Below, one piece after another: positions 1 through 13,435 of a stretch of 64,000 bases of DNA. The notes beneath the pieces are model-generated. The model saw nothing but the letters and a program-made list of their open reading frames with translations. It was not told where the DNA came from and did not search any database. The position numbers were made by a program, and so were the translations under genes. Position 1 is the first letter of the stretch. Each line of letters starts with the position of its first letter. The stretch is from Bradyrhizobium sp. NP1 (GTDB lineage: Bacteria; Pseudomonadota; Alphaproteobacteria; Rhizobiales; Xanthobacteraceae). The stretch lies in NCBI RefSeq assembly GCF_030378205.1, contig NZ_CP127385.1, positions 6,116,001 through 6,180,000 of the forward strand, in the 5' to 3' direction.

Positions 1-643
1 CCTGCTGCGCCGTTAGCTGCTGCAGAAAAACGTCGGATGTCAGAATGCTGGTTGCAATCACGCGAAGCGACTTCAATGAGGCTTCATGATAGGAAGGGTC
101 GGACGAGCAGCAGCAATCCTCGATCAACAGGGTGCGATAGCCGAGTTGGGCTGCGTCGCGGACGGAATGATCGACGGCTACGTTCGTCGCCACGCCTGTG
201 AGGGCAACGGTATCGATCCCGTGACCGATCAATATGCTCTGCAGGTCGGAGCCGTGAAAGACGCTCATCCGGCTGTGCTCGATAATGATATCCGACTTGG
301 CAGGCCCAAACTCCGGCACAACGGCAACGCCGCGAGAACCGCGGATGAACGCGTTATTGCGTTCGGTCACTGTGCGAAATAGGCCGTTGTTTTGAATCAG
401 ACCCGCGTAATTTGGCCAGAAGGCCGCATTGACGAAGACGACCAGCACGCCAGCCTTTCGCGCGGCGTCAAACACGCCCGCTGTTCGCGGAATGATGTTG
501 CTGGACTCGACATAGGCACGGAAAATATCACGCATGTCACCTCCGCCCACGACGTCTTCCTGCCAATGGATTCCGATGATGGCTGTTCTGCGCGCATCCA
601 TGCCGTTCAGCTCTTCGACTCTGTTGCGCAGCAAACGTTCCAT
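1..643 (-). CDS. Isochorismatase-fold hydrolase-like protein, catalytic triad replaced (partial, runs off left edge)
   Basis: The reading frame starts at an ATG at 643 and stays open for 214 codons to the window edge, so the C-terminus is missing. The fold is recognisable from IIGIHWQED near residue 22, RMSVFHGSDL near 125 and TGVATNVAVDHSVRDA near 149, in the order seen in isochorismatase-like cysteine hydrolases (maleamate amidases, nicotinamidases). The three catalytic positions are changed: the usual Asp of the DxQ motif is His26, the usual Lys region reads E122-H123, and the nucleophilic Cys after TNV is Ala156. It may be a non-catalytic relative or use other chemistry. It lies 41 bp downstream of the ring-cleavage dioxygenase gene on the same strand, probably in one operon. 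The family call is secure; the function is unknown. Confidence 0.8.
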   Translation of the reverse strand, partial: MERLLRNRVEELNGMDARRTAIIGIHWQEDVVGGGDMRDIFRAYVESSNIIPRTAGVFDAARKAGVLVVFVNAAFWPNYAGLIQNNGLFRTVTERNNAFIRGSRGVAVVPEFGPAKSDIIIEHSRMSVFHGSDLQSILIGHGIDTVALTGVATNVAVDHSVRDAAQLGYRTLLIEDCCCSSDPSYHEASLKSLRVIATSILTSDVFLQQLTAQQ

Positions 644-684
644 TGGCAGATCCCTTTCAAATTGCGAGGCAAAAAAGCGGCAGA

Positions 685-1623
685 TCAGTCGCGCGCCGGG
701 GACGCAGTCATGATTCCCATACCAGTGATCCACTCCTGGATGGGCTCATAGAACAGAACCCGGTTTTCCGTACGCCCCGCGCTCGTCACGGCCGCGAGAG
801 CGGCAATCCACGAACGCAGCTCGTGCGCGCCCGAACCGGCAATGGCGGTCACGGCGTCGTCCTCGGTGTTGTCCAATACGTCGAGGTTTCCCTTGGCGAA
901 GGCGGCCAGGACGTCGCGGTCCCATTCCGGGTTCAGCGGCCTGATCGGGATGCCGGGCTTCTTGTAGTCCAGCTGAAACACCTGGTTCTGACGCCCAACC
1001 CGCTCGGAATAATTTGGGGTTGCCCCGGTCGTCAGCCGCTCCCTCACCTGGGGATTGGCGGTCGCCAGCGTCGGCAACGGTGGATCATGCGCAAGGCCGC
1101 CCGAGCCAAGAAACAGAATGCGTTCCGGCCTGGAGCACGCCCACTCCCCTACAGTTCGGCCCAGCACGCGTGCCCGTTCGAACGAGGGCCGCGGCGCTGC
1201 GACACAATTGATGAAGATCGGGATCAGGCGGGTCAGCGGAAAGAAGCTCGACAAGAGTTCCACTGGTTGCGCGCCGCCATGATCGATCTTCATCTGATAG
1301 GATATGCCGACGTCGATGCCGGCCTTGATGCAGTACGCCGCGCAGTCCATGGCAGCGGCCTCGGGAATATCCAGGCGCCCGGGAGCCGTTCCGTAGTCGC
1401 CGATGGACTCGCCCTGGACACCGACACAGAACGGCGGGAGCAGATTATAGAAAAAGCCGTTCAGATGATCGGGAAAGAAAAGAACCGTCAAATCCGGCTT
1501 CATCTCCGCCGCAAGGCGATTTGCTGCGCGTACCGCCAAGTTGAACCGCTGCTCGACGTCGGCAGGCGCCCGCTTGCGATCCATCAATGGACTATGCGAA
1601 ATGCAAATCGCGCCGGTAATCAT
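685..1623 (-). CDS. mhpB: 2,3-dihydroxyphenylpropionate 1,2-dioxygenase-like class III extradiol dioxygenase (MhpB family)
   Basis: A 312-residue LigB-superfamily protein. It closely resembles E. coli MhpB, as I recall that sequence, in length and motifs: ISHSPL at the start, FPDHLNGFFYNLLPPF near residue 50, KIDHGGAQP near 112 and FLGSGGLAHDPP near 171. His115 and His179 coincide with the catalytic histidines of MhpB. MhpB-type enzymes use Fe(II) and O2 to open 2,3-dihydroxyphenylpropionate next to the diol. The start at 1623 was chosen because a GGAG motif precedes it and because MITGAICISHSPL matches the usual family N-terminus; a longer open frame reaches 1707. It sits between the hydratase and isochorismatase-like genes, all on the minus strand. 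The exact substrate is inferred. Confidence 0.88.
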   Translation of the reverse strand: MITGAICISHSPLMDRKRAPADVEQRFNLAVRAANRLAAEMKPDLTVLFFPDHLNGFFYNLLPPFCVGVQGESIGDYGTAPGRLDIPEAAAMDCAAYCIKAGIDVGISYQMKIDHGGAQPVELLSSFFPLTRLIPIFINCVAAPRPSFERARVLGRTVGEWACSRPERILFLGSGGLAHDPPLPTLATANPQVRERLTTGATPNYSERVGRQNQVFQLDYKKPGIPIRPLNPEWDRDVLAAFAKGNLDVLDNTEDDAVTAIAGSGAHELRSWIAALAAVTSAGRTENRVLFYEPIQEWITGMGIMTASPARD

Positions 1624-1752
1624 GAGCCCACTCCAATTTATGCGGACGATATGAACCGCCGGACGGATCAGCAACGGCGGATTGCAGAGTGTTCGACCTA
1701 CAAACACGATGAGTGATCGGCAGCAGGAACCGCGAATGCCGCATCACTGCGC

Positions 1753-2535
1753 TCAGGTGAAGGACACTGCGATCGACCCGAGCGGCCCGTAATCGGCGTG
1801 TATGACGTCGCCAGCCGCTACGGAGACCGGCCGGGTGAACGAGCCGGCGAGCACGATTTCTCCTGCCTCGAGCCTCGCGCCCAACGCCGCCAACTTGTTG
1901 ACAAGCCACGCCACGCCGGCCGCGGGATGCCCGAGCACCGCCGCGGACACTCCCGACTCTTCGATCACTCCGTTCTTCGAAAGGGTCGCCCCGATCCACC
2001 GGATGTCCACGTCCATCGGACGGATCGTGCGGCCACCGATCACCATTGCGGCAGCCGCCGCATTGTCCGCGATCGTATCGGTAACCGCACGCGGAACCTC
2101 GGTTCGATAGTCGATGATCTCGAGGGCCGGGACGATGAAGTCCGTCGCCTTCATGACGTCGTATAAGCGGGCGTTGGGTCCCTCAAGCGGATTGCCCAGC
2201 ACAAATGCCAGCTCGACCTCGAGGCGCGGCGCGCGGAAGCGGTTTGCCGGCACCTGCGCGCCATCATTGTAGATCATGTCGTCCAGGAGATGGCCGTAGT
2301 CAGGCTCGGCAATGTTCGACGCCATTTGCATGGCGCGGGAGGTCAGCCCGATCTTATGACCCACGACCCGGCTGCCTTGCGCCACGCGCGCATCGGCCCA
2401 AAGTCGCTGGATCGCATATGCATCCTCCAACTCGATATTCGGAAACGTCCGGCTCAATTGCGGAATGACCCCGCGTTCCCGCTCCGCACGAATCAAATCC
2501 GCAGCGCCGCGCCGCCGCTCCTCTTCGCTCAACAT
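1753..2535 (-). CDS. hpaH: 2-oxo-hept-4-ene-1,7-dioate / 2-hydroxypentadienoate hydratase (HpaH/MhpD family)
   Basis: This 260-residue protein belongs to the fumarylacetoacetase-like hydratase/decarboxylase group. The motifs GHKIGLTS near residue 59, EPDYGHLLDDM near 77, PRLEVELAFVL near 103 and DNAAAAAMVIGG match HpaH more closely than MhpD. Glu106, Glu108 and Glu139 fall at the divalent-metal ligand positions of HpaH. The family adds water to a dienoate produced after meta-cleavage and C-C bond hydrolysis, giving a 4-hydroxy-2-oxo acid for an aldolase. No aldolase or acylating aldehyde dehydrogenase is seen in the window; they may lie beyond the left edge or elsewhere in the genome. It lies between the GST and dioxygenase genes on the minus strand. 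Confidence 0.88.
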   Translation of the reverse strand: MLSEEERRRGAADLIRAERERGVIPQLSRTFPNIELEDAYAIQRLWADARVAQGSRVVGHKIGLTSRAMQMASNIAEPDYGHLLDDMIYNDGAQVPANRFRAPRLEVELAFVLGNPLEGPNARLYDVMKATDFIVPALEIIDYRTEVPRAVTDTIADNAAAAAMVIGGRTIRPMDVDIRWIGATLSKNGVIEESGVSAAVLGHPAAGVAWLVNKLAALGARLEAGEIVLAGSFTRPVSVAAGDVIHADYGPLGSIAVSFT

Positions 2536-2592
2536 CCGAAAAATCTCCTGTTCGTTCGAAGCCGGAGGCGGCTCGAACCGGGGCCACCAATC

Positions 2593-3387
2593 CTAGCCAG
2601 CAAGTATTGCTGCGAAGGCATGCTCGCCGTCTGCGCGGTTCTTCTCGTAAAGCGCAGCCGCTCCGTCGCCGATCCAGCGGCTCACGCCTTGTTGTACCGA
2701 AGGCCGATTGATCACCCGCTCAGCCCACTCGGCCACGCGCGGATACCGCCCGAACAGCAAACCAAGCCCAAACATCTTGAAGCGAATGAGGTATGGCGCG
2801 AAACCCACGTCGGCCAGCGAGAATGCCTCTCCCGCTAGCCACGGCGCCCCGGCGAGGGCCGCGTCGAAATCCGCGAAAAGCTTGGCGCACCGTTGAGCAG
2901 CCGGAGCGAAGTAAGGAGAGTGGACGCCCTTGTCCAAGTTTGCTTTTGACCGCTCTCGGCGATCGGTCTGTGGTATTCCCGCGACCCATCTTGCTTGATC
3001 GGCCGCGGAGCGCGCCAGCAATTCGTGCCGGACGGCTATACAGAACGACAAAGTCCCGACGGCGGCGTGCACGCCTTCGTCGAGCTGCTTGGTCCAGAGC
3101 CGCATCCTGGCACGATCCCATGCATGCGGCGGCTTGAGGGGCGGATCCGGCCACCGATCGTCAAGGTACTCGCAGATTACCGTCGACTCGATCAGCGGGC
3201 GCCCGTCTTGCACGATCGTCGGTACGACGGCATTTGGGTTGAGCCTGAGATAGTCCGGCTTCTGCGCATCGCCGCCTCGCAGGTTGAGAAGGACACTGGT
3301 CCAGTCGACGTTCTTCTCAGCAAGGACGATACGTACCTTGGCAGCGCAGACAGACATCTCGCTATGGTAGAGGGTAAGAGCAGCCAT
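2593..3387 (-). CDS. Glutathione S-transferase family protein
   Basis: A 264-residue protein with a thioredoxin-fold N-terminal domain (residues about 3-80, LTLYHSEMSVCAAKVRIVLAEK followed by the glutathione-site stretch NPNAVVPTIVQDG and IESTVICEYLDD) and an all-helical C-terminal domain (LAGEAFSLADVGFAPYL near 195). GSTs in ring-degradation operons often carry out glutathione-dependent isomerisation or dehalogenation, or protect against reactive intermediates; which applies here cannot be read from the sequence. It is the first gene of the minus-strand set GST-hydratase-dioxygenase-isochorismatase-like, and its start faces the IclR regulator, so the 78-bp gap between them probably holds the operon promoter and the regulator's binding site. 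Confidence 0.85.
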   Translation of the reverse strand: MAALTLYHSEMSVCAAKVRIVLAEKNVDWTSVLLNLRGGDAQKPDYLRLNPNAVVPTIVQDGRPLIESTVICEYLDDRWPDPPLKPPHAWDRARMRLWTKQLDEGVHAAVGTLSFCIAVRHELLARSAADQARWVAGIPQTDRRERSKANLDKGVHSPYFAPAAQRCAKLFADFDAALAGAPWLAGEAFSLADVGFAPYLIRFKMFGLGLLFGRYPRVAEWAERVINRPSVQQGVSRWIGDGAAALYEKNRADGEHAFAAILAG

Positions 3388-3414
3388 TGTCTCGATCGCA
3401 CCTTATGGCAGGAT

Positions 3415-3424
3415 TGATCGATCA
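3415..3424. promoter_or_regulatory. Candidate regulator palindrome TGATCGATCA
   Basis: A perfect 10-bp palindrome lies in the 78-bp gap between the divergent GST and IclR-family genes, where an IclR regulator would be expected to bind. IclR-type sites are often 12-15 bp imperfect palindromes, so this is only a candidate; GATC-rich palindromes also arise by chance. Confidence 0.3.
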
Positions 3425-3465
3425 CGTATCGAGTTGAAGCCCGCCCAGCAATCGGCTATTGCACG

Positions 3466-4317
3466 TTGTTCGTGGAGCGAACCATCGGACCGGCCGTGGC
3501 CAAAGATCGTCAGCCCTATCAATCAGTGTACGCCCTTGAGCGCGGCCTGAGAATTATCGAGATACTCAGCCAAAAGGGATGGACCAGGCCAGGCAAATTG
3601 GCCGGCCTCACGTCGATCGATAGATCGTCGACCTATCGCCTTCTCAGTACGCTGATCGGCGCCGGTTATGTCGTCAAGCGAGACTCGGACGGCTCTTACG
3701 CACTCAGCTCAAAGATCGGCTTGCTCGCCGACGGGTTCATCCAAACCGATCTCGCGGCGCAAATTGCGGCACCGTTTCTCGAGCAACTTACGAGCGAAAT
3801 TTCGTGGCCCAGCGATTTCGCGGGTTTGATCGGCGGCGAGATCGTCATCCTCGAGTCCACTCACCGGGTGAGTCCGCTGTCGATACACCGGGCAATGGTC
3901 GGAAAGCGCCGATCGCTGGTCAACTCATCGCTGGGTCAGGCGATTCTGAGCGTTCTTCGGAAGGAAGAGCTTGAAACGGTTCTCAGCCTTGTGACCCGAC
4001 AGGGGGGACCTGATGCCGGCGTCGCGAGCAGCCGATCCGTCATCGGCCAGATTGTTCGCGACGTCAGGCAACGCGGTTACGCCGCGGCGGTGGGCGCCGA
4101 GGAAGGTAAACGCGTGGGCGCCATCGCGCTGCCCGTGCGCGCTCCCAACGCCGTGATAGGGGCGATCAATATCATCTTTTTTCACAGCGCCATGACGACA
4201 AACGAGGCCGCGGAGCGCTATCTTCCACAACTGCGAAAATGTGCAAACGATATCGCCAAGGCGCTCGCAAGCGCACCAGCACTTCATCACGCCGGCCATT
4301 CGCTTGACGAGACCTGA
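3466..4317 (+). CDS. IclR-family transcriptional regulator (MhpR-like)
   Basis: The protein has an N-terminal winged helix-turn-helix (residues about 20-75, VYALERGLRIIEILSQ and SSTYRLLSTLIGAGYVVK) followed by an IclR effector-binding domain (about 90-270). The pattern of a one-word ERGL start and IDRSSTYRLL helix is like MhpR, the activator of E. coli 3-hydroxyphenylpropionate degradation, which agrees with the MhpB-like gene next door. Transcription is divergent from the GST-led operon and convergent with the reductase gene (5-bp gap). The start is uncertain: TTG at 3466 gives 283 residues, and GTG at 3496 gives 273 residues beginning VAKDRQPYQ. It probably senses a phenylpropionoid-type pathway intermediate. 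Confidence 0.88.
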   Translation: MFVERTIGPAVAKDRQPYQSVYALERGLRIIEILSQKGWTRPGKLAGLTSIDRSSTYRLLSTLIGAGYVVKRDSDGSYALSSKIGLLADGFIQTDLAAQIAAPFLEQLTSEISWPSDFAGLIGGEIVILESTHRVSPLSIHRAMVGKRRSLVNSSLGQAILSVLRKEELETVLSLVTRQGGPDAGVASSRSVIGQIVRDVRQRGYAAAVGAEEGKRVGAIALPVRAPNAVIGAINIIFFHSAMTTNEAAERYLPQLRKCANDIAKALASAPALHHAGHSLDET

Positions 4318-4322
4318 TCTGA

Positions 4323-5279
4323 TCAGAGGTCAAGGACGAGCTCTTCGGATTTCGATCCCGAACAGCACACCATGATGGTGTTGTTGGCCGCTCGCTCGGC
4401 CGGAGTGAGGACCGAGTCGCGATGATCAGGTACGCCCGCCAGCACTTTCGTTTCGCACGTGCCACAAATGCCTTCGGTGCAGGAGTGGTCGACCGATACG
4501 CCGGCCGTTTTCAAAGCGTCGAGGATCGAGCCCCCCTGCGGAATGGTGAGCACCTTGCCGGTCTTGGCGAGCTTCACCTTGAACCCGCCCTGGGGCCGCA
4601 CCACCTCCTTTGGCGTGAAATACTCGACGTGCTTGCGTGAATCCTGAATTCCTGCTGCCGCTTTCTCGAACGCAACCATCAGCGGCAGCGGCCCGCAGCA
4701 GTAGAAATGAGCTCCTTGCGGCGCACGTGCGACGATCCTGCTCAGATCGAGATATTGACCGTTGCTTTCATCGTCGAGATGCAGGTGAATATTCGAACCG
4801 CGTGGCATCTCGTCGGCAAAGGCGACATCGGCACGCGAGCGGCACGCGTAGTGCAGCTCCCACGCCTTGCTCAGGCTCAACAGACGATGAGCCATGCTGA
4901 AGATCGGGGTTATTCCAATGCCGCCCGCGATCAGCACGGAATGCGGTGCATCCTCGTCCAGCGGAAAATGATTTCGGGGTGCGCTTATCGCGAGGACCGT
5001 TCCGACGCGAACGTCGGTGTGAATGTAGGCGGACCCACCCCGACTGTTGGCATCGCGCTTTATAGCAACCCTGTAATCGCCGGTCGGACGTCCTGCCAAG
5101 ATCAGCGAATACTGACGGATCAAGCCGTTCGGCAGGAGAAGATCGATATGCGCTCCCGCCTCCGCGAACGGCAAGTGATTCCGGTTTAGGGAGCGCAGGG
5201 TGTAAGCCCGGATATCGCGTCCGCACTCCTCGATTTCGGCAACCTGCACGTCGATCGGCCCGCTATGGTCAATGCTCAT
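4323..5279 (-). CDS. PDR/VanB-family oxidoreductase (FMN and plant-type 2Fe-2S)
   Basis: A 318-residue class IA oxygenase reductase. Domain order is flavin-binding (RQYS at 55-58), NAD(H)-binding (GGIGITP at 119-125, CGPLPLM at 195-201) and a C-terminal plant-type ferredoxin domain with Cys267, Cys272, Cys275 and a Cys at 305 or 306 (CTEGICGTC near 267). This is the architecture of phthalate dioxygenase reductase and VanB, which pass electrons from NADH to a Rieske oxygenase. No Rieske oxygenase alpha subunit is visible in this window. It starts 9 bp after coxL, so it is probably transcribed with the hydroxylase genes; it may serve an oxygenase outside the window or a different acceptor. Confidence 0.88.
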   Translation of the reverse strand: MSIDHSGPIDVQVAEIEECGRDIRAYTLRSLNRNHLPFAEAGAHIDLLLPNGLIRQYSLILAGRPTGDYRVAIKRDANSRGGSAYIHTDVRVGTVLAISAPRNHFPLDEDAPHSVLIAGGIGITPIFSMAHRLLSLSKAWELHYACRSRADVAFADEMPRGSNIHLHLDDESNGQYLDLSRIVARAPQGAHFYCCGPLPLMVAFEKAAAGIQDSRKHVEYFTPKEVVRPQGGFKVKLAKTGKVLTIPQGGSILDALKTAGVSVDHSCTEGICGTCETKVLAGVPDHRDSVLTPAERAANNTIMVCCSGSKSEELVLDL

Positions 5280-5288
5280 TGTCTTAGC

Positions 5289-7604
5289 TCACGAATCCTG
5301 AAATTGACCCAAGGCCCGCAGGACATTGTCGGGCCTCAGCGGCAACCGAAACAATTGTTCCTGGAGCTCGACTTCCCTTGGCCCTATGGCGCGCCTGACC
5401 GCATTCACGATCGCCGGCGGCGCAGCGATGGTTCCTCCCTCTCCTACTCCACGGATCCCCAGCGGATTTGTCGTTGCCTTCGTTTCGAGGTGATCAATCC
5501 GAATTTCAGGTGTTTCCGGCGCAGAGATGAGCAGGTAATCGGCGAGTGAACCGGTCAAGAGCTGCCCCTCTTCGTCATGAACAAATTCTGAGAACAGCGT
5601 GCAGCCGATTCCTTCGGCAGCGCCGCCCACGATCTGGCCTTCCACGACTTTGGGAACGAGCATGCGGCCGGCGTCATGAACGACGACATAATCCACGACT
5701 GAGCAGCCGCCGGTTCTCTCGTCCACGGCGACCTTTGCAGCGTGAACCGAGAGTGCCATCGTAACCGTGTTCTTGTTGTCGAACACGTATGTATCTTCGA
5801 GCGCGGCGACATCTCCTGAAAAGAGCAGACCGTTCGGCTGGCAGGCCTGGGCTATGTCCCGCAGCGAGAGTGCCGTTGCCGTTCCGTCGGCACGCACAAC
5901 CAGGCCGTCGCTTATGTTCAGCATTTCGGGGACGCATTGGAGGAGCTGGGCAGCTCCGGCCAAAATTTTTCTCCGCACCTTGGCTGCCGCCCCGGCGACG
6001 GCGTTCCCGCCCATCACGGCGCCGCGGCTCGCGAACGTGCCTCTGCCAAAGCCGAGCAGATCGGTATCGCCCAACCTCACGACCACATATCGCGGGCTGA
6101 CGCCGAGCGTCTCCGCACAGATGTCACGTAGTGCCGTCACCTGCCCCTGACCTTGCGACGTCAAGCCGCAGTCAACGTGCACGACACCGGAACCGTCCAC
6201 GCGCACTCTTGCCGTTTCAAAATTGATCAGACCGGTGGCTTCGAGCCCGCAGGCCATACCCCAGGCGATGCGCTCTCCACGAGGCCCCTGCTCGACCTTC
6301 TCGTGGTAGCCGCTCGTCAGCATGGCCCTTTGAATCATGGCAGGAAAGTCGCCGCTTTCGAATATGCCCTTCGATCCCCCATAGCTGATCGACGGGTCGT
6401 AGGGCATATCCTGCGGACGAACGATGTTCCGATCGCGGATTTCGGCCGCGGAGATTCCAACGTCAGCAGCTATGAGATCCAACAAGCACTCCAAGGGAAA
6501 GGTCGCCTCGGGCTGCCCTGCGCCACGACAGGTGGCAAGCGGCGTCTTGTTGGTTCCGACGCAGAACACGTCTACGGCAACGTTCGGGATCTTGTAAGGG
6601 CCGCAGCAATGTGCCGCGGCGACCTCCGCCGTGATAATGCCACTGGTGAACACGTAGGCGCCTATGTCGACGACGAGCCGACCCCGTAGCGCCTCGACCC
6701 TTCCGGAATCGTCGTAACCAAGCTCCAGCGCAGTCTCGATCCCGCGCGACTGCGTCGTCGCTTGCATGTGCTCAAGCCGATCCTCGATCCATTTCACCGG
6801 ACGGCCGATCAAACGGCTGGCGTACGAGATCAGCACCTCCTCGTGATACGGCCGCGACTTGGCGCCGAAACCGCCGCCAACGCTTTCCGCTCTGACCCGC
6901 ACGCTCTGTTCGGGGAGCTGGAGGATTTCCGCGAGATTCGCGCGCACGGCATAGTGCGTTTGGGTGGACGTCCAGATCGTCAAGGCTTCCTGCGCATGGT
7001 CGTAATTGGCGACGCAACCGCGCGTCTCCAGCGGCATCCCCCCTTGCCGATGGAAATAGAAACGACGCTCCATTCGTCGCGCCGAGCGGCCAAGCGCAAC
7101 ATCAGCGTCGCCAATGCTGTGCCGGAACTGCGCTGCCACGTTCCCGGGCCACTCCGAATGTAACGGCTCCGATCCTGGGGAGACGCCCTGCCCGGCCTTG
7201 GCAACAGCCTCCATCGGCTCGTAATCCACCTCTATCAGTTCCGCCAAATCCTCGGCCCGATACCGATCTTCTGCCACGACAAGAGCAACTGCCTCTCCGA
7301 CGTAGCGAACCACGTCCACGGCGAGGAAGGTCGGCAATACCTTGCGTATGCTCGGGTGCCAGTACCGCGCAGCCAGTCTCTTTTCGATAAAGGGAAGATC
7401 CTTGGCCGTCAGGATCAGGATTGCTCCAGCCTTCTGCGCTGGTTCGGTGTCGATTGATTTGATGCGCGCGTGCGCGATCGGACTGCGCACGAAGACGGCC
7501 TGAGCCATTCGGTCCATGTGAATATCGTCGACAAACGACCCGCGGCCGGTCAGGAGCGAATAGTCTTCTGCTCGTAAAAGTCGCGCCTTGTTGTTCTCGT
7601 ACAT
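5289..7604 (-). CDS. Molybdenum hydroxylase large subunit (xanthine dehydrogenase/CoxL family)
   Basis: A 771-residue molybdopterin-cytosine-dinucleotide-type subunit with the aldehyde oxidase/xanthine dehydrogenase a/b hammerhead domain near residues 15-130, VGGGFGAK near 245 and the end motif RGVGEGG, whose Glu is the catalytic base in this family. The CoxL active-site signature AYxCSFR of true CO dehydrogenase is absent, since the corresponding stretch reads TCRGAGQPEATF; it is therefore a hydroxylase for an organic, probably N-heteroaromatic or aldehyde, substrate rather than CO. Translation is coupled to the FAD subunit: the coxM stop overlaps this start (TGATG), and a GTG at 7607 is an alternative start. 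The following gene encodes a flavin-iron-sulfur reductase. Confidence 0.88.
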   Translation of the reverse strand: MYENNKARLLRAEDYSLLTGRGSFVDDIHMDRMAQAVFVRSPIAHARIKSIDTEPAQKAGAILILTAKDLPFIEKRLAARYWHPSIRKVLPTFLAVDVVRYVGEAVALVVAEDRYRAEDLAELIEVDYEPMEAVAKAGQGVSPGSEPLHSEWPGNVAAQFRHSIGDADVALGRSARRMERRFYFHRQGGMPLETRGCVANYDHAQEALTIWTSTQTHYAVRANLAEILQLPEQSVRVRAESVGGGFGAKSRPYHEEVLISYASRLIGRPVKWIEDRLEHMQATTQSRGIETALELGYDDSGRVEALRGRLVVDIGAYVFTSGIITAEVAAAHCCGPYKIPNVAVDVFCVGTNKTPLATCRGAGQPEATFPLECLLDLIAADVGISAAEIRDRNIVRPQDMPYDPSISYGGSKGIFESGDFPAMIQRAMLTSGYHEKVEQGPRGERIAWGMACGLEATGLINFETARVRVDGSGVVHVDCGLTSQGQGQVTALRDICAETLGVSPRYVVVRLGDTDLLGFGRGTFASRGAVMGGNAVAGAAAKVRRKILAGAAQLLQCVPEMLNISDGLVVRADGTATALSLRDIAQACQPNGLLFSGDVAALEDTYVFDNKNTVTMALSVHAAKVAVDERTGGCSVVDYVVVHDAGRMLVPKVVEGQIVGGAAEGIGCTLFSEFVHDEEGQLLTGSLADYLLISAPETPEIRIDHLETKATTNPLGIRGVGEGGTIAAPPAIVNAVRRAIGPREVELQEQLFRLPLRPDNVLRALGQFQDS

Positions 7605-8449
7605 CACGCAAAGACCTCGCGCAGGGATTCGAGCAGAAAGATCGACGCGACGTGACGCCGATATGCGCCGTCGGCGTTGAGGTCCGACATCGGTTCTATT
7701 CGCTCCAGCTCGGCACGAGCCAGATCGGTGGCTATCGCTGTGTCAAAGCCGGATCTCGAGAAGCGGCGACTCAGTTCACTGCAGAAGAAAGGAACAGACG
7801 CTACGCCACCGACGGCCACCAACAGGCTGGACTCACCTGCGGACCGTTGAACGGCCGTGCTCACGATCGCGAAATCGCCTTCACGCCTCGCATATTCGCG
7901 AAAGACAACTTTGGCGTCTGGCGGGGATCTCGGAATCATGATCTCGGTGATGATCTCGCCGGCCCCGATCGCCGTCGTCATCGCGTCAATGAAGAACTCG
8001 TGTGCCTCGATCACTCTCTCGCCGTTGACGCTCTGGAGCCGCAGCCGCGCGTTTAGCGTGACCATTGCCAGGGCCAGCTCTGCCGAGGGATCAGCGTGCG
8101 CCAGGCTTCCGCCTATCGTTCCACGGCTGCGCGTCTGGAAATGACCGACATGCTTCAGAGCGACAACTACGAGTGGGGCGTGCTGCCTGACCTGCGCATC
8201 GTCCAGTATGACGGCCTGCCGCGTCATCGCCCCCACGCGCAAGAAGTCCGACTGAAGCGCGATTCCCGAAAGTTCCGGAACGACGTTCAGATCGACCAGC
8301 ATCGATGGTCGCGCCATCCGCAAGTTCATCATCGGGACCAGACTTTGTCCTCCCGCTAAGGGCCGGGCTTCGTCACCATGGTAATGGAGAAGTTCGAGGG
8401 CCTCCCCGAGCGTGGACGGACGCACATACCTGAAGGGCGACGGCTTCAA
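7604..8449 (-). CDS. Molybdenum hydroxylase FAD subunit (CoxM family)
   Basis: The protein has the FAD-binding motifs of the medium subunit, AGGQSLVPMMNLRMA near residue 33 and TIGGSLAHADPSAE near 110, and the CO-dehydrogenase flavoprotein C-terminal domain. The start is set at a TTG at 8449: it overlaps the coxS stop as TTGA, a GGAG lies 8 nt upstream, and the resulting N-terminus (MKPSPFRYVRPSTLGEA) is typical of the family, whereas the upstream extension to 8503 lies inside coxS. The subunit carries electrons from the iron-sulfur subunit to the acceptor. The three cox-like genes are translationally coupled. Confidence 0.88.
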   Translation of the reverse strand: MKPSPFRYVRPSTLGEALELLHYHGDEARPLAGGQSLVPMMNLRMARPSMLVDLNVVPELSGIALQSDFLRVGAMTRQAVILDDAQVRQHAPLVVVALKHVGHFQTRSRGTIGGSLAHADPSAELALAMVTLNARLRLQSVNGERVIEAHEFFIDAMTTAIGAGEIITEIMIPRSPPDAKVVFREYARREGDFAIVSTAVQRSAGESSLLVAVGGVASVPFFCSELSRRFSRSGFDTAIATDLARAELERIEPMSDLNADGAYRRHVASIFLLESLREVFA

Positions 8450-8919
8450 GGCCTCAACTCCAGAATGGCGTCGACGATTCCCTGGTAACCCGTGCAACGA
8501 CAAAGATTTCCGGACAGCAGCTCCCTTGCCTCCTCGGCATCAGCAGGCCAAATCTCCTTTTCCAGAGCCGCCGTAAGCGTCATCAAAACGCCTGGCGTAC
8601 AGAAGCCGCACTGCAGCGCATGACACCGGCTAAACGCCAATTGCAATGGCGTCAGTTCGTGATTCTTCGCCAGGCTCTCGACAGTCCGCACCTCCCGCCC
8701 ATCGATCTGGGCAGCAAACATCAGGCACGAGCGCACGGCCTCGTCATCCACGATGACCGTGCAGGCGCCGCATACACCGATTTCGCAACCGACATGCGTT
8801 CCCGTCAGCCGCATCTCGTGCCGAAGGAAATCCGCCAGCAGCATTCGCGGTTCGACGTTTGCTTCGACGGCTTGGCCGTTGACGATGCATTTGATCTGTA
8901 CGGAATCAGCCCTATCCAC
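8446..8919 (-). CDS. Molybdenum hydroxylase 2Fe-2S subunit (CoxS family)
   Basis: A 157-residue protein, the normal length for CoxS/QorS, starting at a GTG at 8919 that is preceded by GGAG at 7-nt spacing. The open frame continues upstream to 9129 but that part has no family similarity. Two 2Fe-2S clusters are indicated by Cys45, 50, 53 and 65 (CEIGVCGAC near 45) and Cys104, 107, 140 and 142 (CGFCTPG, NLCRC). It is the first gene of the S-M-L-reductase group and is divergent from the M20-like gene, with 209 bp between the two starts. Confidence 0.9.
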   Translation of the reverse strand: MDRADSVQIKCIVNGQAVEANVEPRMLLADFLRHEMRLTGTHVGCEIGVCGACTVIVDDEAVRSCLMFAAQIDGREVRTVESLAKNHELTPLQLAFSRCHALQCGFCTPGVLMTLTAALEKEIWPADAEEARELLSGNLCRCTGYQGIVDAILELRP

Positions 8920-8976
8920 CTTGATGTCTCCGCGAAGAATGGCGCAGGCTGTTTTGATAGCCGTAGCCGCAAATGC

Positions 8977-8995
8977 TTCCCCACGGCTTGGGGAA
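8977..8995. promoter_or_regulatory. Inverted repeat TTCCCC-N7-GGGGAA in the divergent cox/M20 control region
   Basis: This is a perfect 6-bp inverted repeat with a 7-bp spacer, the most regular element in the 209-bp gap between the divergent coxS-like and M20-like genes. It is suited to binding a dimeric regulator that controls both transcripts, but the regulator is unknown. Confidence 0.35.
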
Positions 8996-9128
8996 CCACA
9001 AGACGATCGATAGCATCGTTCGCACCTCGAACACCGTTCAGAATTGAGCGGACCAGGCCCGATAGGCCCGTATTCTTCCGTACCGTGATAATACATCGCT
9101 ATCAAATCCACGCCTTGCGAGGACTTCA

Positions 9129-10448
9129 ATGAGTGCTGAAAAACACGTCGACTGGTTTGAAGAAAGAGTCAGAAGCGCACAGGCGGCGTTCGATCGGGAC
9201 ACATTCAAGAGCCTGATCGACAGGATGGTCAGCATCCCCAGTCCGACCGGCGAAGAGAAGCAGCTGGCCACTTTCCTCGCCGAATTCATGAGCTCTCATG
9301 GACTGAAGGGTGAGGTGCAGGACATCTCAGATTCGCAAGCCAACGCGCTCGGACGTCTTGCGTCAAAGATCAAGGATGGACCGTCCCTGCTGATTTACGG
9401 CGGCATCGACACGCATATCGGCTACGGCGAGGACGAGAACCGATGGATTGCGGTCCCCTATCCTCAAATTCTCCAGCCCCAAGCGGTCTGGAACGGGGAT
9501 GAGATCAGCGGGCTCTGCGCGGAAAATCCCAAGGGGTACGCTGCCTGTGCGGTTATGGCGGCCGTCAGCATCGCGAAGGCTGGGATCGAATTGCGGGGCG
9601 ACATCACGGTCGGGCTGGGCGCCGGCGGCATGCCGGCGCTATCGCGGCCCGGCTGGTCCAATCACTTCATCGGACACGGTCTTGGCGCCCTGTTCATGCT
9701 GCAACGCGGCGTCCGTCCCGATTACTGCATCTTCTGCAAGCCGCGCTGGTCGGTGTCATGGGAGGAAGTCGGGATCTGCATCTTCAAAATTATCGTCAAG
9801 GGCGGCATCTCATATGTCGGCACGCGTCACGCGGTCGCGGACTATCCGAACCCAATTCCAAAGCTTCCCCGCGTCATCGATGCACTAGAGGCATGGTTCA
9901 AGACGTACACAAAGAGGCATGCCCGAGGGACCATTGTCCCACAGGGCGGGCTGGCCTCCATAAACAGCGGAAGCTCTTATGCGCCGATCACCTCGACGGG
10001 GCGTGTCGAGCTTCTGGTCGACCTACGACCGCCTCCGGAGCTGTCGCCGGCGCAGGTGCAACGAGAGCTTCAGGAATGCCTGAACAAGATCAGGCGCGAC
10101 CATCCCGACATCGACACTGAACTCGAACTGGTTCTGGCCATGCCTGGCGCGGCCACACCAAAGGAAAACTGGATCGTGCAATCGATGATCCGCGCCTGGG
10201 AGGCTATCGAGCAGCGCCCTCACCAGGATCCTCAGAACTTCAGCGGCTACACGGATGCTTCGGCAATCCGCAAGTGGGGTATTCCGACGGCTCGCCTCGG
10301 CGTTCCACCCCGCGCGCGTCCTTCCGATCCGCAGGACACAATGCCGATGAACCGCTTCCATGTCGATGATGCCCAACGCCTGGTCAACGTGATCATCCGC
10401 TCAGCGATCGACACCTGCATGCGTCCGTTCGAGGAGACGTGCCAGTGA
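9129..10448 (+). CDS. M20-family hydrolase-like protein with altered metal-site residues
   Basis: The 439-residue protein has the length and layout of M20 amidohydrolases (ArgE/DapE/ACY1): catalytic start near residue 25, a central lid domain near 215-330, and a C-terminal catalytic half with GYTDASAIRKWGIPTARLG and NRFHVDD. The metal-ligand motifs are altered. The HxD motif reads G92-I-D94, the bridging Asp before KG is Asn133, and the Glu-Glu pair reads G166-G167; only the late His seems kept. It could have lost peptidase-type catalysis or act by another mechanism. Its stop overlaps the start of the C-C hydrolase gene (GTGA), so the two are translated together. In a pathway for an N-heterocycle, a lactam or amide hydrolase would be expected; that is inference only. 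Confidence 0.78.
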   Translation: MSAEKHVDWFEERVRSAQAAFDRDTFKSLIDRMVSIPSPTGEEKQLATFLAEFMSSHGLKGEVQDISDSQANALGRLASKIKDGPSLLIYGGIDTHIGYGEDENRWIAVPYPQILQPQAVWNGDEISGLCAENPKGYAACAVMAAVSIAKAGIELRGDITVGLGAGGMPALSRPGWSNHFIGHGLGALFMLQRGVRPDYCIFCKPRWSVSWEEVGICIFKIIVKGGISYVGTRHAVADYPNPIPKLPRVIDALEAWFKTYTKRHARGTIVPQGGLASINSGSSYAPITSTGRVELLVDLRPPPELSPAQVQRELQECLNKIRRDHPDIDTELELVLAMPGAATPKENWIVQSMIRAWEAIEQRPHQDPQNFSGYTDASAIRKWGIPTARLGVPPRARPSDPQDTMPMNRFHVDDAQRLVNVIIRSAIDTCMRPFEETCQ

Positions 10449-11317
10449 TCGCAACAGATGACATGGCGCCGCTCGATGACGCGGGGACCAGCAGATACGT
10501 GACGATTGACGGCAGCCGGGTCCACTACAACCTGGTCGAATGCTCAGGACCATCGGGCATTCCCATCATCCTGACTCATGGCGGTGGCCCAGGCGCAACG
10601 AGCTGGAACAACTTTCTTTACAACGCTCGTGCGCTTTCGAGCCGGTATAGCTGCTACTTCTATGACCTGCCAGGTTTCGGCGCCTCGGAGGCCGTGCAGA
10701 TCAGCGGCCCCGTGCATTCCTGGTACGCCGAAAAGTTTTTGAAGTTCATGGATGCGCTCAAGATCGAACGGGCCCATCTCGTCAATCAGTCCTATGGCGG
10801 GGCCATGGCCATCAAGGTGGCAGCAATGGCGCCGTCACGCGTCGATCATCTCGTCATCACCGGCTCGCGGCCTGTTCTCGGCAGTCTTATCGCTCCGGCT
10901 TCAACGAGCCGTGGCAAGCTGGCGCTGCAGCGATACTATTCCGGCGAGAACGGTCCGACGCCGGAGCAGATGCGATTTCTGCTGGCTGAGTTGGAATTCC
11001 ACAACCCGGACAGAATCACGGACCTGAACGTCAAGCTCCGATACGAGACGAGCATCACACCGAACGTGCGTGACTTTCTGTCTCAACCTGTCAAGCGAGG
11101 CCAGCCTGAGAGCCTGTTCGAGGAATTTCGCAATGTGAAGGCACGAACCCTCATCATCCACGGCCTGCACGATGCGTTCGGCAGCGTCGACGTCCCCCTC
11201 ACGATGGTCAATCAATTCGCCGACGCCCGACTCCACCTCGTCGCGAGCGCGGGACATCACGTCCAAACGGAATGCCCGACAGAATACAATCCGGTGGTTC
11301 TCGGATTTCTACCGTGA
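10445..11317 (+). CDS. mhpC: Alpha/beta hydrolase, meta-cleavage product C-C hydrolase type (MhpC/BphD family)
   Basis: The protein has a lid-containing alpha/beta-hydrolase fold of about 290 residues. The oxyanion-hole stretch THGGGPGATSWNNF near residue 44 is typical of MhpC/BphD. The nucleophile elbow is N-Q-S-Y-G, giving Ser116; the acid is in HGLHDAFG and the base in AGHHVQ near the C-terminus. This family hydrolyses the ring-fission product to 2-hydroxypentadienoate plus a carboxylic acid (succinate in the MhpC reaction). The start is placed at GTG 10445, which overlaps the M20-like stop and has GAGGAG 9 nt upstream; a GTG at 10439 is possible. Confidence 0.87.
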   Translation: MIATDDMAPLDDAGTSRYVTIDGSRVHYNLVECSGPSGIPIILTHGGGPGATSWNNFLYNARALSSRYSCYFYDLPGFGASEAVQISGPVHSWYAEKFLKFMDALKIERAHLVNQSYGGAMAIKVAAMAPSRVDHLVITGSRPVLGSLIAPASTSRGKLALQRYYSGENGPTPEQMRFLLAELEFHNPDRITDLNVKLRYETSITPNVRDFLSQPVKRGQPESLFEEFRNVKARTLIIHGLHDAFGSVDVPLTMVNQFADARLHLVASAGHHVQTECPTEYNPVVLGFLP

Positions 11318-11323
11318 CGGCTG

Positions 11324-11351
11324 TGCCGGTCGCCGTATCCAACGACCGGCA
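11324..11351. terminator. Hairpin between convergent genes
   Basis: A 9-bp perfect stem, TGCCGGTCG and CGACCGGCA with a 10-nt loop, lies in the 40-bp gap between the converging C-C hydrolase and dadA-like genes. There is no long T tract on either side, so termination efficiency is uncertain. Confidence 0.5.
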
Positions 11352-11357
11352 AGCTTA

Positions 11358-12587
11358 TCACCGCCCACGCAAACCAACTTCAACCGCGTCCGCAATCATG
11401 CCAGCGGTTGCCGCAGAGAGCGTCCAGCCCAGGTGGCCATGGCCGGTGTTGTAAAAGACACCCGGCCTTCGCCCCGCACCAACGCGCGGCAGCATGCTTG
11501 GCGTCATCGGACGCAGTCCGGACCACGGAACCACTCGCGCTGTTGATACGTCTGGAAACAGCTTGCGGGTCCAGTCCACGAGAGGACGTACCCGGTCGGC
11601 GCGAATATCGCGATTGAAGCCATTAAACTCCGCTGTTCCGGCGACACGGAAGCGGCCGGAGCCGAGCCGACTGGTTACGATCTTTGCATCGTCGTCGAGC
11701 AGACTGACCCATGGTGCAGCATCCCGGCTCTTGGCGTCGTCGAGGTTCACCGTGATCGAATAGCCCTTCACGGGGTAGATATTGATCCGATCGCCCAATG
11801 TAGCCGCAAGCCGCCTGCTCGCCACGCCTGCGCAAACCACGACTGCGTCGGTGGCGATCTCCTCCGTTTTGCCTTGAGCCGTCAACCATTGCAGGCGCAC
11901 GCCGGCTTCCGACACGCTGACGTGCTGGATCGACGATTCATAAAAGAAATGGGCTCCTCGGCGCGCACAGACTGCGGCAAGGCCGCGCGTGAATTTGTGA
12001 ATGTCGCCGGTTGCATCGGAAGGCGTGAAGAATCCGCCATAGAAGTCGCCATGCAATGTCGGTTCGAGACCCCTGATCTCCTCCGCCGTGACGGGGTGAC
12101 GTTCGAGACCACCTTCGCCAAGTAGCCCATTGACCCTTTTTGCATGCTCGAAGCCGGTGCGACTCCAATAGACGTGCAGAATGCCGCGCTTTTCCAGATC
12201 GAACTCAAGATTCTCTCTCTCTGCAATCGCAAACAGTGTGCGGCGGGCTTCGAGCGCCAGCCGGACCGTTGAGATCGTATTGCGGCGATAGCGCGGAATC
12301 TGGGCAATGAACTCGCCGAGCCAGGAGTATTTGTGCCAGCTGGGCTTGAGATTGACGAGCAGCGGCGCGTCCTTCCTGAAAAGCCATTTGATGCCTTTCA
12401 GCAACGTCGAAGGATGGTTCCACACCTCCGCGTTGCTGGTCGAAAGTTGCCCACCGTTCGCAAATGATGTCTCCATCGCCGCATAACGTTCTCGTTCGAA
12501 TACCGTGACGGAGTGCCCCTTCTCAAGAAGGGCATAGGCGGATGTAACGCCCGTAACTCCGGCGCCGATGACTGCTACATGTGCCAT
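11358..12587 (-). CDS. dadA: FAD-dependent D-amino acid dehydrogenase/oxidase family protein (DadA-like)
   Basis: A 409-residue DAO-family flavoprotein beginning with the Rossmann motif VIGAGVTGVTSAYALLEKG, with FANGGQLSTSNAEVW near residue 42 and a C-terminal GLRPMTPSMLPRVG and GHGHLGWTLSAATA. This is the DadA pattern of respiratory deaminases that convert D-amino acids (in some relatives glycine or sarcosine) to keto acids and ammonia. GGAG stands 6 nt before the ATG. The upstream tandem glycine riboswitch is the main clue to its role: expression responds to glycine, so glycine or a D-amino acid linked to glycine metabolism is a likely substrate. It interrupts the cox-type catabolic cluster and may have no part in it. 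Confidence 0.87.
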   Translation of the reverse strand: MAHVAVIGAGVTGVTSAYALLEKGHSVTVFERERYAAMETSFANGGQLSTSNAEVWNHPSTLLKGIKWLFRKDAPLLVNLKPSWHKYSWLGEFIAQIPRYRRNTISTVRLALEARRTLFAIAERENLEFDLEKRGILHVYWSRTGFEHAKRVNGLLGEGGLERHPVTAEEIRGLEPTLHGDFYGGFFTPSDATGDIHKFTRGLAAVCARRGAHFFYESSIQHVSVSEAGVRLQWLTAQGKTEEIATDAVVVCAGVASRRLAATLGDRINIYPVKGYSITVNLDDAKSRDAAPWVSLLDDDAKIVTSRLGSGRFRVAGTAEFNGFNRDIRADRVRPLVDWTRKLFPDVSTARVVPWSGLRPMTPSMLPRVGAGRRPGVFYNTGHGHLGWTLSAATAGMIADAVEVGLRGR

Positions 12588-12636
12588 GCAATGCTCCCGC
12601 AGAAAGATGGAAGAGATCGGGATTGCCGATCGATGA

Positions 12637-12813
12637 CCCCATCTGTCGCGGTACCTGAGAGCTTGACCGCGCTGCGAGGCGCGGATGTCCCCTTCGGTGG
12701 ACGCGTGGAAGCGCCTCTCTCCAGATCGTCAAGCCAAACGGTCCTTGTGCCTGAGAGTTTCCGGGGTGGTTGCTCCGTCGGCGCTGACGCTCAGTGAGGC
12801 GTCAGTCTCTCCC
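12637..12813 (-). ncRNA. Tandem glycine riboswitch
   Basis: On the minus strand two glycine aptamers follow each other upstream of the dadA-like gene. Aptamer 1 (12813 to about 12735) opens GGGAGAGACTGAC and closes CTCTCAGGCACAAGGACCG. Aptamer 2 (about 12722 to 12637) opens CTGGAGAGAGGCGC, contains CCACCGAAGGGGACATCC, and closes CTCTCAGGTACCGCGACAG. The paired GGAGAG and CTCTCAGG cores and the CCGAAGGGG junction are the hallmark of the Rfam glycine family. The tandem arrangement and its distance of about 50 nt from the start codon suggest the usual ON switch in high glycine. Confidence 0.92.
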
Positions 12814-12994
12814 GCATGGCCTTATCAGACCCAACCTGCATCGCATGAGGCTGCCCTGCTTCGCATCAAGCTTTAAGAGATTGTTCGTGCAACGAACGAG
12901 CGCGACAGGCTGTTGGACTTCTGCCCGTCGATCCTCGATCGCTGTCGAAGGGGCATATTACGAAGCTTCGCAAACCTTGGGACGACCGACGACG

Positions 12995-13435
12995 ATGGTA
13001 TTAAGTGGCGAAGTCAAACTCAATGCATCACGCGATCTGCTTTGGAAAATGCTATTCGACCCAGACATTCTCAAGGTTTGCATTCCCGGTTGTGAGGCAT
13101 TGGAAAAGATCGACGATTCGACCTTTCAGGCTGTTGCAAAAATCAAAGTTGGGCCGGTCGCGGCGCGGTTCAAGGGTAAGGTGAGCCTAGAAGATCTGGA
13201 TCCACCGAGCGGATGCAAAATCGTCGGTCAAGGCGAAGGAGGCGTTGCGGGTTTCGCCAAGGGCGGAGCAACCGTTACTCTCGCGGAAGACGATGGTGGC
13301 ACCTTGCTAACGTATAGCGTGGAGGCGCAGATCGGAGGCAAGCTTGCCCAACTCGGGCAGCGATTAATCAGTGGGACCGCGAAGAAGTTAGCAGACGAGT
13401 TTTTTTTAGGCTTTGCCAAAGCGGCGCAAAAATAG
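12995..13435 (+). CDS. coxG: CoxG/SRPBCC-family protein (carbon monoxide dehydrogenase subunit G-like)
   Basis: A 146-residue protein starting MVLSGEVKLNASRDLLWKMLFDPDILKVCIPGCE-type sequence, with FKGKVSLEDL and GEGGVAGFAKGGATV, all characteristic of the CoxG family of SRPBCC proteins. CoxG homologues are found with molybdenum hydroxylases; in aerobic CO dehydrogenase CoxG is linked to anchoring and quinone coupling. The long membrane-anchoring C-terminal tail of CoxG is missing here; the protein ends at FFLGFAKAAQK. It probably belongs functionally to the cox-like genes at 5.3-8.9 kb, but is separated from them by four kilobases and lies on the opposite strand. The ATG at 12995 is internal to a longer open frame from 12794. 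Confidence 0.85.
   Translation: MVLSGEVKLNASRDLLWKMLFDPDILKVCIPGCEALEKIDDSTFQAVAKIKVGPVAARFKGKVSLEDLDPPSGCKIVGQGEGGVAGFAKGGATVTLAEDDGGTLLTYSVEAQIGGKLAQLGQRLISGTAKKLADEFFLGFAKAAQK

Follow-up and report, generated by a model that had tools for sequence, protein, structure and literature searches.

The window analysed here is a stretch of 64,000 nucleotides from Bradyrhizobium sp. NP1 (bases 6116001-6180000 of NZ_CP127385.1, a single 7.71-Mb contig). Its left part carries a cluster of predicted aromatic-degradation genes, among them one for a protein of the M20 fold that we call M20L. Coordinates below 1 lie to the left of the window, so that the contig position is 6116000 plus the coordinate. 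The genes named in an initial annotation of the window were all recovered in place, and the cluster extends about 8.4 kb beyond the left edge. The genes that bear on the pathway, from left to right, are as follows (Mo, molybdenum; FAD and NAD, flavin and nicotinamide adenine dinucleotide).

-8444 to -7677, minus strand: HpaI/GarL-type class II pyruvate aldolase (PRK10558, 316 bits; HpaI, 311 bits; range 308-316 bits against cut-offs of 369-407)
-3430 to -2276, minus strand: Rieske oxygenase, with Rieske and Aromatic_hydrox (PF11723) domains
-2048 to -699, minus strand: M20D amidohydrolase (TIGR01891, 357 bits, cut-off 153.75)
-19 to 733 (2-733 in the window), minus strand: isochorismatase-fold protein without an Asp-Lys-Cys triad; a start at about 643, giving 220 residues, is likely
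685-1707, minus strand: MhpB-type class III extradiol dioxygenase (NF009910, 321.9 bits, cut-off 291; 8k04, 268 bits)
1753-2535, minus strand: hydratase of the HpaH-type 2-oxo-hept-4-ene-1,7-dioate hydratase family (TIGR02312, 378 bits, cut-off 351.5)
4323-5279, minus strand: FAD/NAD/[2Fe-2S] reductase with a C-terminal Fer2 domain (domain matches)
5289-7607, minus strand: Mo hydroxylase large subunit (best solved relative QorL)
7604-8503, minus strand: Mo hydroxylase medium (FAD) subunit (family matches)
8446-9129, minus strand: Mo hydroxylase small (2x[2Fe-2S]) subunit (family matches)
9129-10448, plus strand: M20L, an M20-fold protein without most M20 metal-ligand positions and a candidate C-N hydrolase (profile, alignment and context)
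10439-11317, plus strand: MhpC/BphD-type meta-cleavage-product hydrolase (abhydrolase match; Ser, Asp and His motifs found by eye)

Judged from strand and spacing, these genes and their neighbours likely form three transcription units. Unit A (minus strand, 3387 to -8444) runs in the order glutathione S-transferase, HpaH-type hydratase, MhpB-type dioxygenase, isochorismatase-fold protein, short-chain dehydrogenase/reductase (SDR), M20D amidohydrolase, Rieske oxygenase, major facilitator superfamily (MFS) symporter, BisC-type reductase and aldolase, and a gene for an IclR-family regulator is divergent from it. Unit B (minus strand, 9129 to 4323) holds the small, medium and large Mo hydroxylase subunits followed by the reductase. 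Divergent from it is unit C (plus strand, 9129-11317), in which the M20L and MhpC-type genes overlap. Curated NCBIfam cut-offs were passed by the MhpB-type, HpaH-type, M20D and SDR proteins and by a D-amino acid dehydrogenase described below, and not by the other scanned proteins of units A to C.

M20L has the M20 fold, and its best match in both sequence and structure is 5-nitroanthranilate aminohydrolase (the 5k8m family), an enzyme that removes an aromatic amino group with water. The residues that we take to be the M20 metal ligands, namely the His of the HxD motif, the bridging Asp, the EE pair and a further Glu, are for the most part not kept in the M20L family: the His position is occupied by Pro, Gly, Ala or Asn in 46 of 48 family rows, with one gap and one row not printed, and N133 is found in all rows, G167 in 48/48 and K204 in 47/48 with one gap. 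M20L shares with 5-nitroanthranilate aminohydrolase an Asn at the bridging-Asp position and a Lys two residues on. As a separate observation, Phytohabitans suffuscus encodes a second M20 protein (L038:3400-4662) in which three metal-ligand positions are kept, with Mo hydroxylase genes close by and M20L at a distance of about 5 kb.

The initial annotation had drawn attention to two degenerate hydrolase-fold proteins, and both proved real, one being M20-like and the other isochorismatase-like. In the latter, the positions of what we take to be the Asp-Lys-Cys triad of isochorismatase-type cysteine hydrolases are His, His and Ala. H26 and H123 occur in 75/75 family rows (the window's own included, the fragment P0193 left out), and both A156 and a run of three adjacent Cys (177-179) are conserved in at least 95% of rows. 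Since the homologues of both proteins share the loss of canonical catalytic positions, it is attributable neither to a sequencing error nor to gene decay in this strain. At E 1e-40 the isochorismatase-like family was found in 1/296 genomes of the same bacterial family, the source genome itself. An isochorismatase match in L008 was dropped because its Asp, Lys and Cys look canonical, which places it in another family.

We then searched genome contigs for relatives of M20L. An exact-pattern scan with the single protein returned no relative, and a scan with alignment A1 returned 48 pattern matches, resolving into 35 loci, whose neighbouring genes were detected by tblastn with the island proteins; the resulting counts are lower bounds, and several loci are partial. 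A Rieske gene of the carbazole-dioxygenase/2-oxoquinoline-8-monooxygenase superfamily lies within 10 kb in 34/35 loci, and at about 40% identity or more in 33/35 (L006 with just a stub at its contig end); the Rieske genes of L029 are of the 2-oxoquinoline 8-monooxygenase type, and L031 is cut at M20L. LigB/MhpB-type genes are present in 33/35 loci, the two lacking them (L006 and L029) both ending near M20L, and an alpha/beta hydrolase matched by the MhpC query is present in 34/35, in many cases at 23-31% identity. Reductase homologues were seen in 26/35 and Mo hydroxylase subunits in 13/35, and amidase, UbiD and thiamine pyrophosphate (TPP) enzyme neighbours differ from locus to locus. For the LigB proteins of L028, L039 and L008, and for the second LigB gene of L016, the best models are 3-carboxyethylcatechol 2,3-dioxygenases (133-209 bits, below cut-off). 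The gene combination is found in several phyla. The families, their order and this recurrence are read directly from the sequences, and what is new here is that a degenerate M20 protein belongs to a family that recurs with this chemistry despite its lost metal-ligand positions.

Linkage was also assessed by scoring matches on contigs of exactly equal size (at least 3000 bases), using the best 120 of 650 M20L matches, the best 120 of 946 Rieske matches and all 76 isochorismatase matches, with control runs in which lengths were jittered by up to 10%. M20L and Rieske genes were linked 10 times (91 and 80 distinct lengths), against a control mean of 0.34 and a maximum of 3 in 2000 runs. M20L and isochorismatase genes were linked 3 times (control mean 0.16), and Rieske and isochorismatase genes 0 times (control 0.11). 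Close M20L genes, including that of Bradyrhizobium brasilense, thus appear to be linked to an isochorismatase-fold gene. The three contigs concerned carried no window-type Rieske protein among the best 120 of 946 matches, which may represent another exchange of partners, one not seen directly.

M20L was found in 2/296 same-family genomes at E 1e-60 (the source genome and G017) and, at E 1e-80, in 1/265 genus genomes and 1/398 phylum genomes, the source genome both times. The window's Rieske query found 5 genes in the 296 same-family genomes, so that, as a rough yardstick of chance, one would seldom be met in 20 kb taken at random; two of the five (G000 and G017) lie beside M20L, one (G114) lies in a car-like cluster, and two (G080 and G176) lie elsewhere. 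A plasmid search for M20L gave 28 records, of which 20 rows and the organism tally were examined. Among plasmid records with such a Rieske gene M20L was present in 1/8, the 2-oxoquinoline 8-monooxygenase (OxoO) case described below.

The initial annotation had predicted an oxygenase beyond the window, and a Rieske gene indeed lies 2.3 kb to its left, in line with the MhpB-type and HpaH-type genes; the reductase of unit B is its presumed partner. The closest solved relatives of this Rieske protein are carbazole 1,9a-dioxygenase (CarAa, 172 bits) and OxoO (127 bits). A tree of 42 rows places it with L039 (99/94) in a clade that also includes the other Rieske proteins found beside M20L in Actinomycetota, Chloroflexota and Vulcanimicrobiota, as well as L049 and L050, which are not near M20L; several long branches meet in this tree, so that fine placement is unsure. 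L006 and both tblastn-derived L029 entries were left out beforehand, the first L029 copy was restored by its own coordinates, and the L005 row was replaced by the same gene from L042/L043. At 28-30% identity to OxoO-type proteins, and in a different clade, the window's Rieske protein is not an OxoO orthologue, although a like function is still possible, and its position outside the CarAa clade means that it is not a CarAa orthologue.

Elsewhere, M20L follows genes of the OxoO type. On plasmid p1 of Cupriavidus necator C39 (L041), a 449-residue protein that matches OxoO over its full length (863 bits) is followed by a reductase with an N-terminal ferredoxin domain, by M20L (33% identical to the window's) and by an amidase. 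In L029, OxoO-type genes (the first copy best matching 1z01, 367 bits) and a reductase with an N-terminal ferredoxin domain stand ahead of an M20L sharing 57% identity with the window's across 195 residues. In G017, a genome of the same family as the window's, the order is Mo hydroxylase, alpha/beta hydrolase, LigB, UbiD, OxoO-type oxygenase, reductase, M20L, TPP enzyme, second Mo hydroxylase and BisC-type reductase; the BisC-type proteins of G017 and the window are 63% identical, but their Rieske and M20L proteins only 30-36%. The Rieske proteins of L041, L029 and G017 group together, away from the window's (100/98). In the M20L tree, however, from which L037 and L040 were left out and in which the L031 and L029 rows are partial, L029 nests in the window's group (12 rows, 100/100), and the Cupriavidus and G017 proteins branch deep, on long branches. 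The L029 M20L thus lies in the window's group and its Rieske protein with the OxoO type, indicating that one M20L family is paired with at least two Rieske lineages. An OxoO query gave 0 matches in the 398 phylum genomes, a result that is uninformative.

Upstream in the proposed route, the Mo hydroxylase large subunit has quinoline 2-oxidoreductase (QorL, 421.6 bits) as the first of its 42 solved matches, followed by 6-hydroxypseudooxynicotine dehydrogenase (409 bits), with lower scores on carbon monoxide dehydrogenases (CODH; 367 and 309 bits) and aldehyde oxidases (at most 180 bits). The catalytic Glu of GVGEGG is retained, and a gap stands at what we take to be the alignment position of the CODH active-site Cys. 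Downstream, the MhpB-type protein passes the model for 3-carboxyethylcatechol 2,3-dioxygenase (NF009910), so that a meta-cleavage enzyme of the 2,3-dihydroxyphenylpropionate type is present, and both His motifs, presumably the catalytic ones of MhpB-type dioxygenases, are kept in the alignment with 8k04. The molecule name of this solved enzyme includes both 2,3-dihydroxyphenylpropionate and 2,3-dihydroxycinnamate, and an ene-reductase may therefore be dispensable here. The aldolase that the initial annotation had placed outside the window was found to the left, with scores below the cut-offs; the aldehyde dehydrogenase expected with it was not, none of 18 genomic matches falling in 6078001-6132000 and the nearest lying about 0.25 Mb off.

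The 8-hydroxycoumarin pathway of quinoline breakdown, as outlined in the excerpted account, converts 2,8-dihydroxyquinoline to 8-hydroxycoumarin and ammonium, with no enzyme named for this step, and proceeds through 2,3-dihydroxyphenylpropionate to meta-cleavage (PMC9029321); in similar excerpts, 8-hydroxycoumarin is reduced by XenA (PMC5519977, PMC7913881). Among the open-access literature matches listed, no title or abstract opening assigns an enzyme to the deamination or connects this M20 family with quinoline degradation.

Taken together, the gene content makes it reasonably probable that this island specifies the breakdown of a benzo-fused N-heteroaromatic by a coumarin-type route. We infer each of the reactions that follow, above all the third step and the substrate. 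The Mo hydroxylase would introduce an oxo group at the position adjacent to the ring nitrogen to give a lactam, and the Rieske oxygenase with the reductase at 4323-5279 would hydroxylate the benzo ring beside the nitrogen, yielding an 8-hydroxy-2-oxo-quinoline-like product. Acting on the hydroxylated lactam or on the 2-aminophenol formed when it opens, M20L would then yield the corresponding catechol and release ammonia, possibly assisted by M20D or the isochorismatase-fold protein as an amidohydrolase. Steps four to seven would comprise MhpB-type meta-cleavage, MhpC-type hydrolysis, HpaH-type hydration and HpaI/GarL-type aldol cleavage. Losing nitrogen as ammonia from a hydroxylated lactam requires both lactam opening and aromatic amine hydrolysis, which makes a relative of 5-nitroanthranilate aminohydrolase standing beside OxoO a reasonable candidate. 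We tentatively put M20L forward, as a possibility short of probable, for the C-N cleavage of the coumarin route, a step for which the enzyme has been missing. Working without the M20 metal site, it would convert 8-hydroxy-2-oxoquinolines or ring-opened 2-aminophenols to 8-hydroxycoumarin or 2,3-dihydroxycinnamate and ammonia, and the family would extend across Pseudomonadota, Actinomycetota, Chloroflexota, Myxococcota and Vulcanimicrobiota (Eremiobacterota), its Rieske and Mo partners being interchangeable. Which enzyme opens the amide seems to differ between loci: in Cupriavidus and in G017 it would be an amidase, in the present cluster either M20D or the isochorismatase-fold protein, and in actinobacteria perhaps a second alpha/beta hydrolase. 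We would guess at a role for the isochorismatase-fold protein in a lactam or lactone step and, likewise as a guess, that the BisC-type enzyme, also present in G017, reduces an N-oxide form of the substrate.

Several observations weigh against this reading. The His and two Glu positions kept by 5-nitroanthranilate aminohydrolase are gone in M20L, which would have to carry out this reaction with different catalytic machinery, and the Cupriavidus and G017 M20L proteins found with OxoO-type genes are only 33-36% identical to the window's. The window's own Rieske protein sits in a third clade, apart from the OxoO-type and CarAa-type proteins (both 100/100), and the ferredoxin domain of its reductase is C-terminal rather than N-terminal as in the reductases beside OxoO-type genes. 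No M20L or LigB gene was detected near the Rieske genes of G080 and G176 (44%), which together with the car-like context of G114 shows that this Rieske clade is not always accompanied by M20L. The LigB of G017 matches 3-carboxyethylcatechol models weakly (68 bits). In NCBIfam the large subunit scores highest on aerobic CODH group 5 (591 bits against a cut-off of 950) and next on glyceraldehyde dehydrogenase alpha (542 bits against 790); neither score reaches its cut-off, and its NCBIfam matches include no model for a quinoline oxidoreductase. These two models also rank first for the first large subunit of G017 (735 and 610 bits). The assignment of the Mo hydroxylase to the heteroaromatic kind, made in the initial annotation, hence agrees with the ranking of solved structures and not with the NCBIfam one, and a heteroaromatic substrate is likely but not settled. 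Lastly, the hydratase is of the HpaH and not the MhpD type, L010 having a 4-hydroxy-2-oxovalerate aldolase instead, which suggests that an additional carboxylate may be present on the ring fragment in this route. In addition to the missing aldehyde dehydrogenase, the cluster holds no gene of the old yellow enzyme/XenA type, the nearest of 10 genome matches (5997095-5998069) lying about 110 kb to the left. On balance, the solved-structure ranking and the context lead us to favour the coumarin-type route despite the CODH result. The earlier proposal of a quinoline-type route gains support as to pathway class, through the Rieske gene, the aldolase and the independent contexts, but not as to quinoline itself: a C7 diacid suits the HpaH-type hydratase and the HpaI/GarL-type aldolase better than 2-hydroxypentadienoate does, and no XenA-type gene lies within about 100 kb, so that we do not claim quinoline as the substrate, which may be another compound.

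Such a substrate could also lie outside the quinoline type altogether. The cluster might instead serve a different N-heteroaromatic or an aromatic bound through an amide (an oxindole, a kynurenate-like compound or an N-acyl conjugate, for instance), with M20D and the isochorismatase-fold protein freeing an aromatic acid or opening another lactam, and with HpaH and HpaI taking a carboxylated ring fragment. The HpaH-type hydratase, above its cut-off when the 2-keto-4-pentenoate hydratase model PRK11342, which we take to be MhpD, reaches 191 bits against 350, speaks for this, as does the M20D gene in line with the operon; the varying amidase, UbiD and TPP-enzyme neighbours also suggest that substrates probably differ between hosts. 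Even so, we consider it unlikely, given that M20L stands behind a close OxoO homologue on the Cupriavidus plasmid and behind OxoO-type genes in L029 and G017, and that the closest solved Mo subunit is QorL. It is very improbable that the Rieske enzyme is an angular dioxygenase, opening a ring to a 3-substituted catechol for MhpB and MhpC. CarAa is its top solved relative, and the carbazole car operons (pCAR1, KA1) likewise combine a homotrimeric-type Rieske enzyme, a meta-cleavage enzyme and an alpha/beta hydrolase; its clade, however, is separate from theirs, M20L was not found on any of the 7 CarAa-type plasmid records (39-41%, several being copies of one plasmid), and car clusters are not known to include a Mo hydroxylase. 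An ordinary mhp-like cluster for phenylpropionate or hydroxycinnamate, flanked by unrelated Mo hydroxylase, M20L and Rieske genes, is very improbable: the MhpB-type, MhpC-type, regulator and hydratase genes resemble the classical mhp set of 3-phenylpropionate degradation with its IclR regulator, but the window has an HpaH/HpaI-type hydratase and aldolase, as well as Mo and Rieske genes for earlier steps of the route, the combination recurs across phyla with M20L/Rieske linkage far above the chance expectation, and the M20L and MhpC-type genes overlap on one strand. The iad auxin pathway was set aside because, in the excerpted account, its Rieske enzyme has two subunits and its route ends in anthranilate (PMC12633357).

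Compared with the quinoline 8-hydroxycoumarin pathway of Pseudomonas putida 86 (Qor, OxoOR, XenA), the proposed coumarin-type route shares the Mo hydroxylase and the Rieske oxygenase and reductase superfamilies, as well as a meta-cleavage set of the 2,3-dihydroxyphenylpropionate type. It differs in its Rieske clade, its HpaH/HpaI-type lower genes and the lack of a nearby XenA-type gene. The P. putida 86 cluster is reportedly treated by Carl et al. 2004 (Gene), and the available extracts of descriptions of the pathway mention no M20-type or isochorismatase-fold enzyme. The occurrence of the M20L family beside 2-oxoquinoline 8-monooxygenase homologues, together with its resemblance to an aromatic-amine hydrolase, makes the deamination step directly testable. 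Should M20L prove to act in the absence of the M20 metals, it would stand out among biocatalysts that cleave aromatic C-N bonds, and the recurrence across phyla suggests a widespread N-heteroaromatic route.

The remaining features of the locus are as follows.

-7487 to -5169, minus strand: BisC-type S/N-oxide reductase (TIGR00509, 946 bits, cut-off 1017.55)
-5094 to -3544, minus strand: MFS symporter (TIGR00883, 289 bits, below cut-off)
-858 to -37, minus strand: SDR (PRK06125, 356 bits, cut-off 261)
2593-3387, minus strand: glutathione S-transferase family protein (domain and family matches)
3466-4317, plus strand: IclR-family regulator (best NCBIfam models PRK09834.1-3, which we take to be the MhpR family; 198 bits, below the cut-off of 269)
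12794-13435, plus strand: CoxG-type protein (PF06240), whose membership of the pathway is uncertain
13818-14516: phage-integrase-family gene of 232 codons
14751-14826: tRNA-Lys(CTT)

A CoxG homologue (28%) also lies upstream of the first Mo hydroxylase in the G017 cluster. In 2-kb blocks, G+C content is 0.54-0.62 from -38 kb to about 14 kb and 0.59-0.70 further right, the step being gradual. The cluster sits near the right end of the lower-G+C stretch, which stops at the integrase-family gene and tRNA-Lys(CTT), and these probably mark the right end of an integrated island. The lower G+C, this boundary and the presence of M20L in only 1 of the 265 genus genomes searched, the source genome itself, all fit an acquired island. 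A D-amino acid dehydrogenase gene (11358-12587; NF009074, 717 bits, cut-off 494) is convergent with the M20L-MhpC unit. Further left, genes for a branched-chain-type ATP-binding cassette transporter (-17054 to -12357; substrate-binding protein, two ATPases and two permeases, named by eye) possibly serve the uptake of an aromatic substrate. Finally, the region from -31987 to -22653 encodes a LigXa-type Rieske oxygenase, an intradiol dioxygenase, a FAD monooxygenase, a glyoxalase-fold protein and an iron-containing, maleylacetate-reductase-like alcohol dehydrogenase, a set that looks like a hydroxyquinol route.

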